From assembly GCA_017644325.1 (NCBI GenBank), contig JAEPLS010000002.1:1-64000 (forward strand): DNA of 64,000 nucleotides. Reading direction: 5' to 3'. This document shows positions 26,422 to 30,946 of this stretch, piece by piece; the stretch's first letter is position 1, and each line of letters opens with the position of its first letter. The stretch is from Prochlorococcus marinus CUG1438 (GTDB lineage Bacteria > Cyanobacteriota > Cyanobacteriia > PCC-6307 > Cyanobiaceae). Below the pieces are notes generated by a model. That model was not told the origin of the DNA, ran no database searches, and saw nothing but the letters and a program-made list of their open reading frames with translations. Position numbers and translations under genes: made by a program.

Positions 26422-27612
26422 ATGAGTTTAAAAAAAAATATAAAAGATATTAAGAAAAATTATTCCCTGGGAATAATTGGAGGTGGTCAACTGGCTTTAA
26501 TGTTAACCGAGGCAGCAAAAAAAAGAAATTTAGAAGTATGTGTGCAAACAAAATCTTGTGATGATCCTGCTGGTTCAAAAGCAGATCATGTTATAGAAGC
26601 TGATCCTTTAAAGATAAGAGGTAATAAATCATTAATTAATGAGTGTGAAAAAATAATTTTTGAAAATGAATGGATAAAAATTGATAAATTAAATTTAATT
26701 GACAATAAAGATATTTTTGTCCCAAGCCTTAATGCAATTAAGCCATTAGTAGATAGGTTTTCTCAAAAAAAATTAATAGAAAGAATGAATATTCCCTGTC
26801 CAAAATGGATAAGCATTGAAGATTTTAAAAATCTCTCGGATGAGGAAATCAATAATTGGAATTTTCCTTTAATGGCAAAATCAAATAAAGGTGGATATGA
26901 CGGTAAAGGCAACAGAAAAATAAAGACAAAAGAAGATTTAGATTCTTTTTTTACAGAGAACAATTCCGATGAATGGTTAATAGAAGAATGGATAGAGTAT
27001 GAAAAAGAACTGGCTCTCGTTGGTTCGAGAGATAGGACCGGTAAGATAAGATTCTTTCCAATAGTTGAGACATTCCAATCAAACCATGTTTGTGATTGGG
27101 TTCTTGCACCTGGAACAAATGCATATGATTTGAACTTATTTGCAATAAATATTTTCTCTTCAATAGTCAATGAACTGAATTACGTTGGAGTTTTAGCTAT
27201 TGAATTCTTCTATGGAGATAATGGTCTTTTAATTAATGAAATAGCTCCAAGAACACATAATTCAGCTCATTTCTCTATTGAAGCTTGCACTTCAAGTCAG
27301 TTTGATCAATATGTTTGCATTTCTTCTGGGATAATGCCACCTGAAATTAAAATGAACTGTGAAGGTGCAATTATGATAAATCTACTGGGGTTAAAAAAGA
27401 ATTTCCCAATCTCAATGGAAACCAGAATTAAAATGTTATCTGAAATTGAGGGTTCTAATATTCATTTTTATGGCAAATCTCGCGAAATTCTGGGAAGAAA
27501 AATGGCTCACATCACATTTTTATTAAATGGTAAAACACATTCAGAAAGATATGATGAAGCTCAAATTTTATTAACTATGGTAAGAGACATTTGGCCATCT
27601 CCAAATGCATAA
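26422..27612 (+). CDS. purK: 5-(carboxyamino)imidazole ribonucleotide synthase
   Basis: Uses ATP and bicarbonate to carboxylate AIR in purine synthesis. The 396-residue ATP-grasp enzyme shows 'LGIIGGGQLALMLTEAA' at the N-terminus, the nucleotide loop 'SNKGGYDGKGN' near residue 155 and 'NEIAPRTHNSAHFSIEAC' near 272. 6S RNA follows immediately on the same strand, an arrangement described for cyanobacterial ssaA. Confidence 0.95.
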   Translation: MSLKKNIKDIKKNYSLGIIGGGQLALMLTEAAKKRNLEVCVQTKSCDDPAGSKADHVIEADPLKIRGNKSLINECEKIIFENEWIKIDKLNLIDNKDIFVPSLNAIKPLVDRFSQKKLIERMNIPCPKWISIEDFKNLSDEEINNWNFPLMAKSNKGGYDGKGNRKIKTKEDLDSFFTENNSDEWLIEEWIEYEKELALVGSRDRTGKIRFFPIVETFQSNHVCDWVLAPGTNAYDLNLFAINIFSSIVNELNYVGVLAIEFFYGDNGLLINEIAPRTHNSAHFSIEACTSSQFDQYVCISSGIMPPEIKMNCEGAIMINLLGLKKNFPISMETRIKMLSEIEGSNIHFYGKSREILGRKMAHITFLLNGKTHSERYDEAQILLTMVRDIWPSPNA

Positions 27613-27632
27613 AAAAATAAGTTAGAGTTAGA

Positions 27633-27815
27633 TTACTGGATCTTTGGTTAAGTTCTTCTTTATGTGCTCTGATCTGACTCTCTTTCGACATGAGGAGACT
27701 GTCGTGATGCGGTAGTAAACCGATCTTGTAATCGGAAACGAAAGCCCACTTTGAATCCTCTTCTGGCATTTCCAGGTCGATGCAGCAGAGAACTGACGGG
27801 GATCCGGTGTTACCT
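27633..27815 (+). ncRNA. ssaA: 6S RNA
   Basis: The segment after purK is much richer in G and C than its surroundings and has no credible ORF. A closing stem pairs ACTGGATC (27635-27642) with GATCCGGT (27801-27808), using a G-U pair valid only on the plus strand. Inner blocks GAGGAG/CCTC and TTCGAC/GTCGA flank bulges, and a terminal hairpin CCGAT/ATCGG caps the rod. The length of about 180 nt and the purK-linked position match cyanobacterial 6S RNA (Yfr7 in Prochlorococcus). It mimics an open promoter to bind RNA polymerase. Ends are approximate. I see no gene between it and 27920. Confidence 0.8.
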
Positions 27816-27920: not shown

Positions 27921-27966
27921 TTGACGACCTTTTCTGATGTATTTATATTTGTAGTACACATGTATT
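27921..27966 (+). promoter_or_regulatory. Promoter and LexA-like operator of the first DUF1651 locus
   Basis: TTGACG (27921-27926), a 17-base spacer and TATATT (27944-27949). Directly after it, AGTACACATGTATT (27953-27966) fits the published cyanobacterial LexA consensus AGTACWNWTGTACT at all positions but one. It covers the expected start site, where a repressor would block transcription. Confidence 0.65.
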
Positions 27967-27974
27967 ACTAATTA

Positions 27975-28274
27975 ATGACTTTAGGAGGAGCTAATGTTTG
28001 GACTAATTTTTCTTACGGTTATCGTAATGAGTCCCCAAGTGGTTGGTTGCTTAGCCCAGAGCGTAACAGACTAATTTTATTTACAAGGAATAAAAAATCT
28101 CCAAGAAATAGTATGAGAATTTTTGCTCATACATATTATGCAAATGATCTTGGTGAGCCAATGGCAATTAAATCATCAACTCAAATGTTTTTGGATAATG
28201 CTTGGGATAAATGGCATGACCTTCAATTAGAAGGTTGGACTTTTGAAGAACTTGAATTACCTGAATCTGTATGA
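27975..28274 (+). CDS. DUF1651 protein, paralog 1
   Basis: A 99-residue protein with the DUF1651 core: 'PSGWLLSPERNRLILF' near residue 21, then 'YYANDLGEPMAIKSS' and 'AWDKWHDLQLEGW'. Function unknown; the family is confined to marine picocyanobacteria. The first 20 residues before 'GWLL' are poorly conserved with paralog 2 and overlap another ORF in the +1 frame. No Shine-Dalgarno precedes its ATG. The next gene starts at its stop (ATGA at 28271-28274), which suggests coupled translation. Confidence 0.8.
   Translation: MTLGGANVWTNFSYGYRNESPSGWLLSPERNRLILFTRNKKSPRNSMRIFAHTYYANDLGEPMAIKSSTQMFLDNAWDKWHDLQLEGWTFEELELPESV
27994..28074 (+). CDS. Candidate overlapping 26-aa hydrophobic peptide (copy 1)
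   Basis: In the +1 frame of the DUF1651 gene, ATG at 27994 is preceded by AGGAGGAG at the right distance and ends with TAA at 28072-28074. The product begins MFGLIF, is hydrophobic through residue 20 and has 'PQVVGCL', which resembles a lipobox without an upstream positive charge. The matching peptide at 30439-30519 has the same length, start, stop and 12 identical residues. Expression is unproven. Confidence 0.5.
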   Translation: MFGLIFLTVIVMSPQVVGCLAQSVTD

Positions 28275-28411
28275 CTAACTTAAATCCAATAAAAAAGAAA
28301 TTATCACAATTAGATAGAAAGATATCTATGCAAGACCCATCAAAATTATTAGCAGAATTTTTTAATGGTGTTGTGATTGAACTTGATGAAGAATATAAAT
28401 ATGACTCATAA
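28271..28411 (+). CDS. Small protein, unknown (46 aa)
   Basis: ATG overlaps the DUF1651 stop codon (ATGA). The peptide is charged and helical (MTNLNPIKKKLSQLDRKIS, then LLAEFFNGVVIELDEEY). No motif recognised. Close coupling on both sides points to a three-gene operon with DUF1651 and the next ORF. Confidence 0.55.
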   Translation: MTNLNPIKKKLSQLDRKISMQDPSKLLAEFFNGVVIELDEEYKYDS

Positions 28412-28550
28412 AGAATTGATAGATCAAGTTTCCGAAAATTTATTCAAACAAAGTGGAAAGTTTGAAAGTAGAAGATCATGGTTGGCAATGAGAAATTATC
28501 TTGAACAATTAGATACCGAACAACTTAAATCCATGCTTAAGGACCACTGA
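28401..28550 (+). CDS. Small protein, unknown (49 aa)
   Basis: It starts 11 bases inside the preceding small gene. The sequence has 'SENLFKQSGKFESRRSWLAM' followed by an acidic helix (LEQLDTEQLKSMLKD). It is the last gene of the 27975-28550 operon. Function unknown. Confidence 0.55.
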   Translation: MTHKELIDQVSENLFKQSGKFESRRSWLAMRNYLEQLDTEQLKSMLKDH

Positions 28551-28562
28551 TGATTCAAAACT

Positions 28563-28676
28563 TTATTTAGTTTTTATTTTTTTCTTAATTCTCAGAAAAC
28601 CGTAAGTTGCAAAGCCAACCAAAAACATATCCAAGTAAATATGCCAAGTAGGAAAAATCTGATGTATTAATTCCAT
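28563..28676 (-). CDS. Small single-helix membrane protein (37 aa)
   Basis: Its ATG shares one base with the stop of the upstream ligase-like gene (TAATG at 28674-28678). The peptide is mostly one membrane helix (IYLDMFLVGFATYGFL) with a basic tail (RIKKKIKTK). Unknown function; translation is probably coupled to the ligase-like gene. Confidence 0.55.
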   Translation of the reverse strand: MELIHQIFPTWHIYLDMFLVGFATYGFLRIKKKIKTK

Positions 28677-29425
28677 TAACGTTTTATTGCCACTTGCCAA
28701 TAAGGATAATCTAAATTTGATTTTTCTCTAATCAATTGTAATTTTCTAGAATTTATTTTTACTACTATCCCATCTGTTGGATAGTTACTAAAAAGCTTCC
28801 CTTCTAGCCATTGTTTTCTAAATACTTCAACTTGGCTAGTAAAGTTGCATGAAATATCCTGAGGGATCGTGAAGCCAAGCTTTGAAAGACTTTTTTTGGA
28901 CTCATATTGGTTAAGTGTTGAATTAAGTATTTGAAATGCGCAGAAGATAAGATTTGCAGAAAATCCTTCTTTAGCTCTTAGAAATCCAGAAGCGATTCTC
29001 TGGGAGATATTTGGACTTTGGTTGGGTGCATATAATTCACCTCTAACTTGAAGAACTCCTCGTAAAGGGAGATTATTGGGAATGTCTTGGACTTTAATAA
29101 GTTTACTAGTAACGTCTGCTCCTTTTCTTGAAATTGCTTTCTCCAAGGTTCCATCCCTATATTGCAAAGCGACAGCACAACCATCAATTTTTGGTTCAAT
29201 TAATAATCTGGTATTTACTAATAATCCTTTCAAAAATTCATCTATTGAATCCTTTTCTAATGAAGGTAAAACTAGTTTATTTTTCTTTTTAAAGTAATCA
29301 CAATTTGGGTTTGTTCTTAATAAATTTTTTTCAAGTTGGTCGAACTGCTTATCAGAGATTAAAGCATTACCATTTCTATAATTATCGTCATACCATTCAA
29401 TTCGTTCTTCTAAATAAGTCTTCAT
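28676..29425 (-). CDS. Stand-alone NAD-dependent DNA ligase adenylation domain
   Basis: The 249-residue protein covers only the Ia and nucleotidyltransferase parts of NAD-dependent ligase. It has the Ia-like start 'YDDNYRNGNALISDKQFDQLE', the catalytic Lys in 'IEPKIDGCAVAL' near residue 98, 'VRGELY' near 147, and 'TDGIVVKINS' with the final 'YPYWQVAIKR' motif. The OB fold, zinc finger, HhH and BRCT parts of full ligases (about 670 residues) are absent, with no frameshift seen. It may adenylate a substrate but is unlikely to seal nicks unaided. Confidence 0.85.
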   Translation of the reverse strand: MKTYLEERIEWYDDNYRNGNALISDKQFDQLEKNLLRTNPNCDYFKKKNKLVLPSLEKDSIDEFLKGLLVNTRLLIEPKIDGCAVALQYRDGTLEKAISRKGADVTSKLIKVQDIPNNLPLRGVLQVRGELYAPNQSPNISQRIASGFLRAKEGFSANLIFCAFQILNSTLNQYESKKSLSKLGFTIPQDISCNFTSQVEVFRKQWLEGKLFSNYPTDGIVVKINSRKLQLIREKSNLDYPYWQVAIKR

Positions 29426-29632
29426 TTAATAAGATGGCTTAAGTTTTTGGTCAGGTATCCAACTTGGTTTATCTATAATCCATTTTTCTCTATCTTCATA
29501 TTTAACAGTCCATAAAAGAAATGAAGAAATTTCTTTTAGAGTAATGCCAACCAAATATCTTGTTTTTGGACTTATTGATATAAATCCAAATAATAATATT
29601 AATAAAATAAGTTTAAACATGCCTTTAATCAT
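29426..29632 (-). CDS. Small membrane or exported protein (68 aa)
   Basis: An N-terminal hydrophobic segment (LILLILLFGFISI, residues 8-20) serves as signal or anchor and is followed by an aromatic-rich tail (WTVKYEDREKWIIDKPSWIPD). It ends directly before the ATG of the ligase-like gene, so the two share a transcript. Function unknown. Confidence 0.6.
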   Translation of the reverse strand: MIKGMFKLILLILLFGFISISPKTRYLVGITLKEISSFLLWTVKYEDREKWIIDKPSWIPDQKLKPSY

Positions 29633-29663
29633 TTAAAAACTCAGCATAATTTTTGCGAACTTT

Positions 29664-29921
29664 TTAATTAATGCAATTCTTATAACCCTCAATCTTTGCT
29701 AGTTCATCAATATTCAAACCTGTTTCTTCTAGTAAAGTTTCTCCTATATCGTCCTTATTAAATTTAGTTAAAGCTCCTTTAGTAGAGTACTTAATACATT
29801 GGTTTTTGTATTTTGCTTCTTTGACTACAGGATATAAATAAAAACCAAACAAGACGATAAAAGCCCCATAGATTGCAACTTTTATAAGGTTTTTCCACCA
29901 TTCATAAAATTTATTGGACAC
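29664..29921 (-). CDS. Small membrane protein with paired Cys (85 aa)
   Basis: One membrane helix (residues 13-31) leads into 'YLYPVVKEAKYKNQCIKYS', then a soluble tail ending 'GYKNCIN'. The 'YPV..AK.K..C.K' block recurs in the 142-residue protein at 57800-58228, so the two are probably distant relatives. The two tail Cys could form a disulfide outside the membrane. Function unknown. Confidence 0.6.
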   Translation of the reverse strand: MSNKFYEWWKNLIKVAIYGAFIVLFGFYLYPVVKEAKYKNQCIKYSTKGALTKFNKDDIGETLLEETGLNIDELAKIEGYKNCIN

Positions 29922-29990
29922 GAAAAATAAATGACTATTTTCTATTTTAAATTGAATGTCAACAAATTACTTTAGAAATTTAAGGATTGG

Positions 29991-30299
29991 TTAATTTATT
30001 GTTTTTTCATTAATAGATTTAACCCAAGAATAATATCTTGATTTTCTAATCCTTTGCTCTTTCAAGACTAATCTATCCGCAGATTCTAGGGGTGATTCTC
30101 CTTTCTCAATTTTTGTTGTCATAGAAATACCAAAACCTTTTGCTTCAATTTTTGCGATGCCACCCTCTAAAAAAAATAAAAAAGACCAACCTTTGTTCCA
30201 TCCTAAATAGAAGGGATTTCGATACATTGTATTCTTTTGGAGATACTCTTTAAATGATATTTTCCTTTTCAAGGAGTTACTTGTATTCACTATTACCAA
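29991..30299 (-). CDS. Conserved hypothetical protein (102 aa)
   Basis: A basic soluble protein with a central 'YLGWNKGWSFLFFLEGGIAKIEAKGF' segment and a charged C-terminus. I do not recognise it. It diverges from the second DUF1651 locus with a 68-base gap that holds that locus's promoter. Confidence 0.55.
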   Translation of the reverse strand: MVIVNTSNSLKRKISFKEYLQKNTMYRNPFYLGWNKGWSFLFFLEGGIAKIEAKGFGISMTTKIEKGESPLESADRLVLKEQRIRKSRYYSWVKSINEKTIN

Positions 30300-30367
30300 A
30301 TAAGAAGTTTACGGCTGATTATTTCTGGAAAGTAATTTTAGTATTTAAATAATTATCAAAGGAATAC

Positions 30368-30413
30368 TTGACGTTAAGGAGTAGTACATTTATATTATTA
30401 GTACAACTGTATT
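30368..30413 (+). promoter_or_regulatory. Promoter and LexA-like operators of the second DUF1651 locus
   Basis: TTGACG (30368-30373), 17 bases, TATATT (30391-30396), matching the first locus position for position. AGTACAACTGTATT (30400-30413) covers the start site and fits the cyanobacterial LexA consensus at 12 of 14 positions. A weaker second match, AGTACATTTATATT (30383-30396), overlaps the -10. Confidence 0.6.
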
Positions 30414-30419
30414 ATCTAC

Positions 30420-30710
30420 ATGACTTCAGGAGTTGCTAATGTTCGGACTTATTTTCATCGTTGCAGCCTTATTGACCCCCCAACTGGCTGGTTGTTTAAC
30501 AAAAAAAGTGGTTTATTAATTTTTTTTGAGACTTATAAGAAATCTGTATCTAATAACTTAAAAGTATATACTCATCTTTTCTATGCAAATGAATTAGGTG
30601 AACCAGCCCAAATTAAAAATTCAAGACTTCATTCTATTGAGTGTGCTTGTGAAACATGGAATGAATTAATTTCAGGAGGTTGGCAAATTGTTACTAATAA
30701 ATTCCAGTAA
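30420..30710 (+). CDS. DUF1651 protein, paralog 2
   Basis: A 96-residue relative of the 27975 gene: 'PTGWLFNKKSGLLIFF', 'LFYANELGEPAQIKNS' and 'ACETWNELISGGW' align with it. The first 20 codons overlap a +1-frame ORF at 30439. The downstream Cys-rich gene starts 2 bases after the stop. Gene order, promoter and overlap match the first locus, so the two loci look like diverged duplicates. Confidence 0.8.
   Translation: MTSGVANVRTYFHRCSLIDPPTGWLFNKKSGLLIFFETYKKSVSNNLKVYTHLFYANELGEPAQIKNSRLHSIECACETWNELISGGWQIVTNKFQ
30439..30519 (+). CDS. Candidate overlapping 26-aa hydrophobic peptide (copy 2)
   Basis: A +1-frame ORF inside the DUF1651 gene, with AGGAG upstream of ATG 30439 and TAA at 30517-30519. 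It begins MFGLIF, continues hydrophobic and has 'PQLAGCL', in which LAGC is a formal lipobox. Start, stop and length equal those of copy 1. No independent proof of translation. Confidence 0.5.
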   Translation: MFGLIFIVAALLTPQLAGCLTKKVVY

Positions 30711-30712
30711 TC

Positions 30713-30946
30713 ATGATCAAGGTAAATCCGTCAAAATGGGAATATCTAAAAGAATCTACCCTAAAACGAAAACGAACAAAGATTTGTATTACTTGCAATC
30801 ACTTTCGCTACAGCACTACAGAAACTTTTGCTACTATCTTGATCTGCCCAAAATACGAAAAACGCATACCACAGGGTGATCATTTACTTAAAGGCTGTGA
30901 GTATTGGCAAAAAAATAGGACGATATTTTCCCCTGAAGCATCTTAA
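30713..30946 (+). CDS. Small Cys-rich, probable zinc-binding protein (77 aa)
   Basis: The 77-residue basic protein has 'KICITCNHF' followed by 'LICPKYEKRIPQGDHLLKGCEYW', giving a CxxC...C...C pattern that could hold zinc or a cluster. It is immediately downstream of DUF1651 paralog 2 and probably in its operon. Function unknown. Confidence 0.65.
   Translation: MIKVNPSKWEYLKESTLKRKRTKICITCNHFRYSTTETFATILICPKYEKRIPQGDHLLKGCEYWQKNRTIFSPEAS

Follow-up and report, generated by a model that had tools for sequence, protein, structure and literature searches.

Genes nested out of frame on the same strand of another gene are hard to prove in bacteria, and Prochlorococcus, to which the case considered here belongs, counts among Earth's most abundant photosynthetic cells. 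Within a 64,000-nt stretch of Prochlorococcus marinus CUG1438 (hereafter the window) we analysed two loci of the DUF1651 family, gene 1 and gene 2, each of which contains near its start a second, hidden open reading frame (ORF) of 26 codons in the +1 frame. The closest described counterparts of the hydrophobic peptide that such an ORF would specify are TisB (29 aa) and DinQ of E. coli and SidA (29 aa) of Caulobacter, presented in passages of PMC3567139, PMC4211646 and PMC11449926 as SOS-induced single-pass peptides. The predicted hidden peptide resembles them in size, in hydrophobicity and in having an operator of its organism's own LexA type, but these passages do not describe TisB, DinQ or SidA as nested in another frame. 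Antisense RNAs accompany dinQ (PMC3567139, in part), and one is reported at the locus that occupies the place of gene 1 in strain MED4 (PMC2518516, in part). With the overprinted E. coli gene nog1, as portrayed in passages of PMC4683798, the hidden ORF shares a lineage-limited frame laid over another gene and a predicted membrane product. The nog1 frame, however, has 101 residues, runs in the -2 frame of citC and has its own promoter region, whereas the hidden ORF has 26 codons, lies on the same strand in the +1 frame, apparently uses the promoter and operator of its host and, in one class of genes, is the more constrained frame over its codons 2-15. Its host genes belong to the same family as the DUF1651 host-response genes of marine cyanobacteria (PMC5490813, DUF1651 passages), and the other three of the five DUF1651 genes of the CUG1438 genome lack such an ORF at the corresponding place. 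Yfr6 and Yfr9 of MED4, in the relevant passages of PMC2518516, are also small peptide frames of the same genus with antisense partners, one RNA of each pair being phage-responsive; unlike the hidden ORFs, their frames (33 and 44 aa) have their own transcripts and do not lie out of frame inside a protein gene.

Our comparison of many DUF1651 genes indicates that the hidden ORF goes beyond chance in gene 2 and in a sister class of genes over hidden codons 2-15, and partly so in gene 1. Dual coding is well supported by the substitution patterns for gene 2 and for that sister class, and at 30439 there is probably an overlapping gene that is translated and that annotation has overlooked. The result points to an unannotated peptide, likely made by Prochlorococcus under DNA damage or phage attack, and would connect the SOS response with DUF1651, which is already associated with infection by cyanophages. 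The second ORF goes unmentioned in the DUF1651 passages of PMC5490813 and in titles and abstracts on MED4 genes and on small or overlapping ORFs, among papers available without subscription.

The starts of the two host genes are separated by 2445 bp, and both proteins score above the curated Pfam cut-off of 22 bits (40.4 bits for gene 1, 51.3 bits for gene 2). The elements of the two nested arrangements are as follows:

27975-28274, plus strand: DUF1651 gene 1, 99 aa; PF07864 at E=3.9e-10, domain at residues 23-89
27983-27988, plus strand: Shine-Dalgarno AGGAGG of hidden ORF 1; its GGAG core is present in 81/81 sequences of the gene 1 class (c1)
27994-28074, plus strand: hidden ORF 1, 26 aa, MFGLIFLTVIVMSPQVVGCLAQSVTD, overlying DUF1651 gene 1 at its codons 7-33 in the +1 frame; a candidate coding frame
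30420-30710, plus strand: DUF1651 gene 2, 96 aa; PF07864 at E=1.6e-13, domain at residues 23-93
30428-30432, plus strand: Shine-Dalgarno AGGAG of hidden ORF 2; GGAG in 92/92 sequences of the gene 2 class (c2)
30439-30519, plus strand: hidden ORF 2, 26 aa, MFGLIFIVAALLTPQLAGCLTKKVVY, overlying DUF1651 gene 2 at its codons 7-33 in the +1 frame

A preliminary description of the window had reported both ORFs, from ATG to TAA and 19 nt downstream of the DUF1651 ATGs (27975 and 30420), each preceded by a Shine-Dalgarno sequence, and this arrangement is confirmed. Our recount also agrees with its figures, namely 12/26 identical residues in the hidden frame versus 8/26 in the DUF1651 frame, and three differences within the MFGLIF codons, every one of them at a third position of the hidden frame. 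Its remark that the DUF1651 ATG lacks a Shine-Dalgarno sequence extends to the relatives, a loose motif occurring in the last 16 nt before it in 2/81 c1 and 0/92 c2 sequences. The suggestion of a leader peptide in the usual sense finds no support, as the ORF begins 19 nt after the DUF1651 ATG and overlaps the gene that it would supposedly control. A genome search with the 17-base pattern of the first codons found, at 0 mismatches, the two known places and no free-standing copy of the peptide; with up to 2 mismatches there were 83 matches versus 61 in the reversed control, so that weaker matches are uninformative.

Relatives were gathered from a contig scan (80 of 181 loci kept), from searches for DUF1651 in 101 genomes of the genus and 400 of the family, from fetched stretches and 32 chosen family genomes, and from two added searches of 266 genus genomes. 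The DUF1651 body from residue 28 onwards was the sole criterion for collecting sequences, hence neither a hidden ORF nor a hidden ATG was required; genes retaining the hidden ORF only would escape searches by DUF1651 family or protein. The record titles of the relatives name Prochlorococcus and a few Synechococcaceae, and the source genome is presumably that of a high-light Prochlorococcus. Many of the records are single-cell or draft genomes in which sequencing errors are possible. Four classes were distinguished, their sizes being counts of the sequences fetched among the best-scoring matches listed and the true totals at least as high: c1, to which gene 1 belongs (81 unique sequences); c2, that of gene 2 (95 unique, 92 used, with L046, L047 and L096 left out for indels that put them out of register); c3, a sister class missing from the CUG1438 genome (29 unique, found in 23 of the 266 genus genomes); and c4, a control class with the same operator (17 unique). 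The substitution and site-wise counts use 24/29 c3 sequences, without L251-L254, which are intermediate to c4, and the degenerate L229, and 15/17 c4 sequences, the N-termini of L168 and L246 not being alignable. These paralogous classes serve as natural controls, including c4, where the operator is the same and the hidden frame unconstrained. The hidden ATG is kept in 79/81 c1, 92/92 c2, 28/29 c3 and 12/17 c4 sequences, and the length of 26 codons in 81/81, 92/92, 29/29 and 15/17, respectively. No MFGLI-type ORF occupies this place in any of 30 loci from other genera.

Substitutions were placed on trees by parsimony and assigned to two-letter classes, the first letter giving the effect in the DUF1651 frame and the second that in the hidden frame (N, changing; S, silent); NS changes are thus silent only in the hidden frame and SN changes only in the DUF1651 frame. 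Over nt 21-63 of the DUF1651 gene, which correspond to hidden codons 2-15, and with a tree built from the DUF1651 body alone, the NS:SN ratio in c2 was 50:16 versus 15.3:33.4 expected from DUF1651 coding alone (p=1.7e-13, the p values here and below treating changes as independent), and in c3 it was 17:6 versus 5.5:27.0 (p=3.1e-9). The control class c4 gave 9:35 versus 9.4:31.2 (p=0.86). Removal of singletons left the pattern in place (44:13 in c2, 16:6 in c3). Expressed per site, c2 accumulated 0.86 NN, 3.63 NS and 0.87 SN changes in this region, against 1.31, 1.34 and 3.09 in the gene body; the region thus bears a protein-coding signature in the hidden frame, whose silent positions change at full speed, and none is detected for DUF1651. 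The corresponding omega values, with codon-bootstrap intervals, are 0.24 (0.05-0.47) for the hidden frame and 0.98 (0.21-3.46) for DUF1651. When all 29 c3 sequences are counted there are 20 NS and 12 SN changes versus 39 and 159 in the body, and both rates are shifted (p=0.015 and 1.4e-5). Among sliding windows of 14 codons (80 in c2, 83 in c3) the most extreme one starts in both classes at DUF1651 codon 7, overlapping the hidden ATG, and a signal of the hidden-frame type, looked for in the third frame and in the gene bodies, was not seen there. Hidden codons 2-15 of c2 and c3 are under purifying selection at the codon level. The comparison of both frames over many DUF1651 loci, by which the preliminary description had proposed to judge dual coding, therefore upholds the idea for gene 2 and c3 over these codons, with c1 and c4 behaving as expected of DUF1651 alone and gene 1 (27994) showing extra constraint in its start region only.

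In hidden codons 2-7, which overlie DUF1651 codons 8-13, c1 has undergone 0 DUF1651-silent changes on 4.1 sites where about 12 were expected from the body rate of 2.98 per site (p=2e-5); the counts are 0 on 4.1 sites in c3, 1 on 4.7 in c2 and 10 on 4.1 in c4. Beyond hidden codon 7 the c1 rate is 2.29 and then 5.37 per site, against the same body value. The GGAG ribosome site is kept in all c1 and c2 sequences, as listed above, and in 24/24 of c3, as opposed to 7/15 of c4 (10/15 if any of three looser cores is accepted), and the codon for Gly4 of DUF1651 is GGA in 92/92 c2 sequences, although any GGN would be silent. In gene 1 the start region is thus under extra constraint, while amino-acid selection on the hidden frame is not seen over the remaining codons. 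Gene 1 is a candidate for dual coding, in which the act of translation may count for more than its product, or from which the peptide may gradually be disappearing.

Some features that seemed to speak for the peptide turned out to be dictated by its host. The shared TAA exists, as had been described, but the Leu-Ile codons of DUF1651 dictate the stop and the c4 control has it at codon 26 in 15/17 sequences; consequently the conserved stop is no evidence for hidden coding. The predicted product is likewise hydrophobic, the best 19-residue hydropathy being 2.06 for hidden ORF 2 and 2.09 for hidden ORF 1, and a value of at least 1.9 is reached by 7.8% of 141 background ORFs, but the class medians (c1 2.09, c2 2.06, c3 1.87, c4 2.11) place the control as high as the others and deprive this property of independent weight. 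Mild support comes from c2, where the residues are not detectably constrained by DUF1651 and the hydropathy of the peptides stays at 1.86-2.22. The mean net charge of residues 20-26 is +2.00 in c2, +1.45 in c3 and -1.00 in c1, so that the c2 and c3 peptides, with a hydrophobic stretch and a basic end, would be membrane peptides with the C-terminus inside. A lipoprotein, to which the lipobox-like ends VVGC and LAGC had pointed, was rejected, because residue 19 varies among Cys, Tyr and Phe (Cys/Tyr/Phe counts of 72/8/1 in c1, 89/3/0 in c2 and 1/27/1 in c3), its identity being decided by the choice of Leu codon in the DUF1651 frame.

Beyond what the preliminary description contained, a promoter and a LexA-type operator precede both DUF1651 genes:

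27921-27949, plus strand: promoter TTGACG-17-TATATT of gene 1, 10/12 matches; 88/91 c1 hits fit the strict pattern, mostly at spacing 18
27953-27966, plus strand: LexA-type operator AGTACACATGTATT of gene 1; box in 89/91 c1 hits, 6-9 nt from the DUF1651 ATG
30368-30396, plus strand: promoter TTGACG-17-TATATT of gene 2, 10/12 matches; in 99/99 c2 hits, all at spacing 17
30400-30413, plus strand: LexA-type operator AGTACAACTGTATT of gene 2; box in 98/99 c2 hits, 5-7 nt from the DUF1651 ATG

The boxes end 8 nt (gene 1) and 6 nt (gene 2) before the DUF1651 ATG and resemble the genome's own lexA box, which is exactly GGTACAAATGTATT (L255), and its recA box, AGTACATCCGTACT. The cyanobacterial LexA box has been given as RGTACNNNDGTWCB or AGTACWNWTGTACT, with GGTACAAATGTATT at MED4 lexA (passages of PMC3091678). 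At a near-fixed distance the box also occurs in 41/41 c3 and 23/23 c4 hits (the hit totals of 91, 99, 41 and 23 for c1 to c4 count some genes twice, these having been retrieved under two locus names), and TTGAC with TANNNN at 17-19 nt in 90/91 c1, 99/99 c2, 41/41 c3 and 22/23 c4 hits. A stricter second hexamer is found in 88, 99, 28 and 3 hits, respectively, and the c4 promoter is therefore weaker at -10. Box and hidden ORF are not coupled, since c4 has the box too. These sites suggest that the DUF1651 genes are regulated by LexA as part of the SOS response and induced by DNA damage. A third DUF1651 gene of the CUG1438 genome (L005/L208) also has a LexA-type box. Two more LexA-like boxes, AGTACATATGTATT, were encountered in this genome, one before a 68-aa ORF (L204:1286-1492) and one near position 1500 of L205, in the short interval that separates a 76-aa ORF from a divergently oriented one of 292 aa; the ORFs beside them are possible further SOS genes.

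The link to phage comes from the genomic neighbourhood of gene 1, for which two landmarks are needed:

26422-27612: purK, upstream neighbour of the 6S RNA
27630-27814, plus strand: 6S RNA (Yfr7), RF00013 at 93 bits, a positional landmark

In MED4 the order is purK, Yfr7 (6S RNA) and PMM0684 (passages of PMC1242208), and gene 1 is the positional equivalent of PMM0684 because purK, the 6S RNA and gene 1 follow in the same order. PMM0684 and PMM0819 appear in the DUF1651 passages of PMC5490813 as DUF1651 genes induced by the podovirus P-SSP7. The main text of the LexA study PMC3091678 contains neither PMM0684 nor PMM0819, nor phage.

Taken together, the reading that we favour with moderate confidence is that of an SOS-released transcript with two starts 19 nt apart, one for DUF1651 and one for a nested membrane peptide; translation, LexA control, membrane location and function are here proposed from sequence features. 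LexA would repress the DUF1651 transcript, and DNA damage, perhaps including phage infection, would release the repression, as we infer from the operator and from the published induction of the MED4 gene in the place of gene 1. The predicted transcript start falls within the operator and leaves a leader of about 17-19 nt ahead of the DUF1651 ATG. The first start, devoid of a Shine-Dalgarno sequence, would be a poor one and yield DUF1651; the second, 19 nt further on and with a strong Shine-Dalgarno sequence, would yield a separate hydrophobic peptide of 26 residues from the +1 frame. A ribosome bound at the Shine-Dalgarno sequence would cover the first ATG, which makes competition between the two starts probable. 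The product is most likely a membrane peptide acting in the SOS response, and may act like TisB, DinQ or SidA.

Several results weigh against this proposal or narrow it. The c1 class gives an NS:SN ratio of 3:14 versus 6.3:29.9 expected (p=1) and a hidden-frame omega of 0.91 (0.12-8.38) over nt 21-63, its nt 63-96 hold 43 DUF1651-silent changes on 8.0 sites (5.37 versus 2.98 in the body, p=0.0015), and the hidden ATG has become ACG in L093 and L094 (2/81 sequences). The strongest c3 result rests on 24/29 sequences; with all 29 the hidden-frame omega is 0.35 (0.12-1.3), an interval that spans 1 and is not significant by itself. Over hidden codons 16-26 (DUF1651 nt 63-96, the start of the DUF1651 domain) hidden-frame selection was found in no class, omega being 0.91 (0.29-5.83) in c2, 0.86 (0.32-3.24) in c3, 2.81 (1.17-5.98) in c1 and 2.88 in c4, so that selection on the far half of the peptide has no support, c2 included. 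The hydrophobicity is a by-product of the DUF1651 frame, and the three indel-bearing c2 copies are damaged in both frames. Finally, the whole-genome count of box-like patterns is 12 versus 15 in the reversed control, and for this reason the case for the operator rests on position and conservation.

Some of these results would suit a regulatory start, i.e. a decoy or competing short ORF of irrelevant sequence that lowers the output of DUF1651. A strong ribosome site 8 nt inside a gene whose own ATG has none is what such a device would need, the start region of c1 is frozen while its later codons and amino acids follow DUF1651, and the second half of the c2 and c3 peptides shows no hidden-frame selection. 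A decoy has no need, however, for the amino acids of hidden codons 2-15 to be kept with the silent positions free (50:16 in c2, 17:6 in c3), and we regard this explanation as unlikely. Coding by DUF1651 alone, with the hidden ORF as a by-product of conserved N-terminal residues and T-rich codons, fits c4 (9:35) and gene 1 (3:14) and accounts for both the conserved TAA and the hydrophobicity; it fails in c2 (p=1.7e-13) and c3 (p=3.1e-9), where it is refuted as far as substitution patterns can refute it, and leaves the frozen DUF1651-silent positions in codons 8-13 of c1-c3 unexplained. As an account of the whole it is decidedly improbable. 

That a non-coding element, either a conserved 5' RNA structure or antisense pairing, lies behind the pattern could be argued from MED4, where, in passages of PMC2518516, the antisense RNA to PMM0684 rises together with its mRNA on phage infection. 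The three-base period of the changes and the way in which they track amino-acid identity in the hidden frame make this very improbable, and in a folding test, the one search made for structure, neither leader surpasses its shuffled versions (z = +0.95 and +1.70); promoter-like antisense sites are at chance level (14 versus 16.9 in shuffles). A -1 frameshift joining the hidden ORF to DUF1651 was considered on account of the motif A AAA AAA G, which c2 carries towards the 3' end of its hidden ORF, AAAAAAA being present there in 75/92 c2 sequences and the indel variant L046 reading as one fused frame. The heptamer is nevertheless found in 0/81 c1, 0/29 c3 and 0/17 c4 sequences, a shift at that point would skip the GWL motif of DUF1651, which is conserved in 75/75, and the DUF1651 ATG is kept in 89/92 c2 sequences, all of which renders a frameshift scarcely credible. 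More speculative, and in our judgement rather doubtful, is an extension of the proposal with two starts to a membrane toxin or division inhibitor, SOS-released, nested out of frame within a second SOS protein and braked by an antisense RNA, in other words a hidden, phage-induced type I toxin-antitoxin locus. In c2 the younger frame would have overtaken the older one, the DUF1651 tail being mainly the reverse side of the peptide and DUF1651 decaying in some strains, and the classes would record the birth of a gene by overprinting, with the hidden frame unconstrained in c4, constrained in its start region only in c1, constrained together with DUF1651 in c3 and dominant in c2. If this were true, several stages of overprinting would be visible side by side.

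In the AlphaFold model of the gene 2 protein (15 sequences) the pLDDT is below 50 at residues 1-13 and averages 58 at residues 11-20, and the first strand spans residues 23-27; hidden codons 1-14 therefore overlie a low-confidence tail that is probably disordered. The DUF1651 frame is also read and selected, since its ATG is kept (89/92 c2, 80/81 c1) and omega in the body is 0.27-0.42. Ahead of the hidden ORF, codons 2-6 of c2 have undergone 48 silent changes on 5.0 sites, as expected if DUF1651 is read there, and constraint on DUF1651 goes undetected at c2 codons 8-21 (omega 0.98). Three c2 sequences have a damaged DUF1651 frame, L058 and L063 with a TTG start and premature stops and L098 with an ATA start, and the hidden ORF is intact in all three. 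The c2 copy L046:5462-5760 has one additional base in a run of C, by which the hidden ORF continues in frame into the DUF1651 body; this may reflect either a natural fusion or an error of sequencing.

Foldseek returned no confident match for the gene 2 model (best E 0.19). In VIA-align the top 14 rows for this model (four strands followed by a helix) are only PARP1 and PARP2 chains, with Z of 5.2-6.8, followed by rows at 4.6 and lower, and these scores fall short of a safe match; several of these rows are titled as WGR domains bound to broken DNA. As a lead, DUF1651 may have a DNA-binding fold. For either DUF1651 protein PADLOC and PHROGs returned nothing, the neighbouring 49-aa ORF giving E=0.016 in the former and the 77-aa neighbour two weak matches in the latter. 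Searches of phages by tblastn, with the proteins of c3 and of gene 2 as queries, gave no match at E 0.01, and none of the viral contigs matched gene 2; a coliphage member of DUF1651 is named in passages of PMC5490813. The one match for the c3 protein in the viral collection, contig IMGVR_UViG_2716884731 (L215:2900-3300), carries near its end a c1-like DUF1651 gene complete with promoter, box and hidden ORF, and this gene may be either phage-borne or part of a host stretch.

Downstream of the two genes lie three small ORFs:

28271-28411, plus strand: 46-aa ORF overlapping the DUF1651 gene 1 stop by 4 nt; likely same operon; no Pfam match
28401-28550, plus strand: 49-aa ORF with ATG at 28401 (an earlier TTG in the ORF list); likely same operon; no Pfam match
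30713-30946, plus strand: 77-aa ORF directly 3' of DUF1651 gene 2; no Pfam match

DUF1651 gene 1 and the two tiny ORFs that follow it, of 46 and 49 aa and with overlapping ends, likely form an operon. Relatives of the 46-aa ORF are also placed after c3 DUF1651 genes (L015, L021 and L024). Between the two DUF1651 genes, on the minus strand at 28676-29425, a protein of 249 aa is encoded that has the adenylation domain of NAD-dependent DNA ligases and no other ligase Pfam domain.

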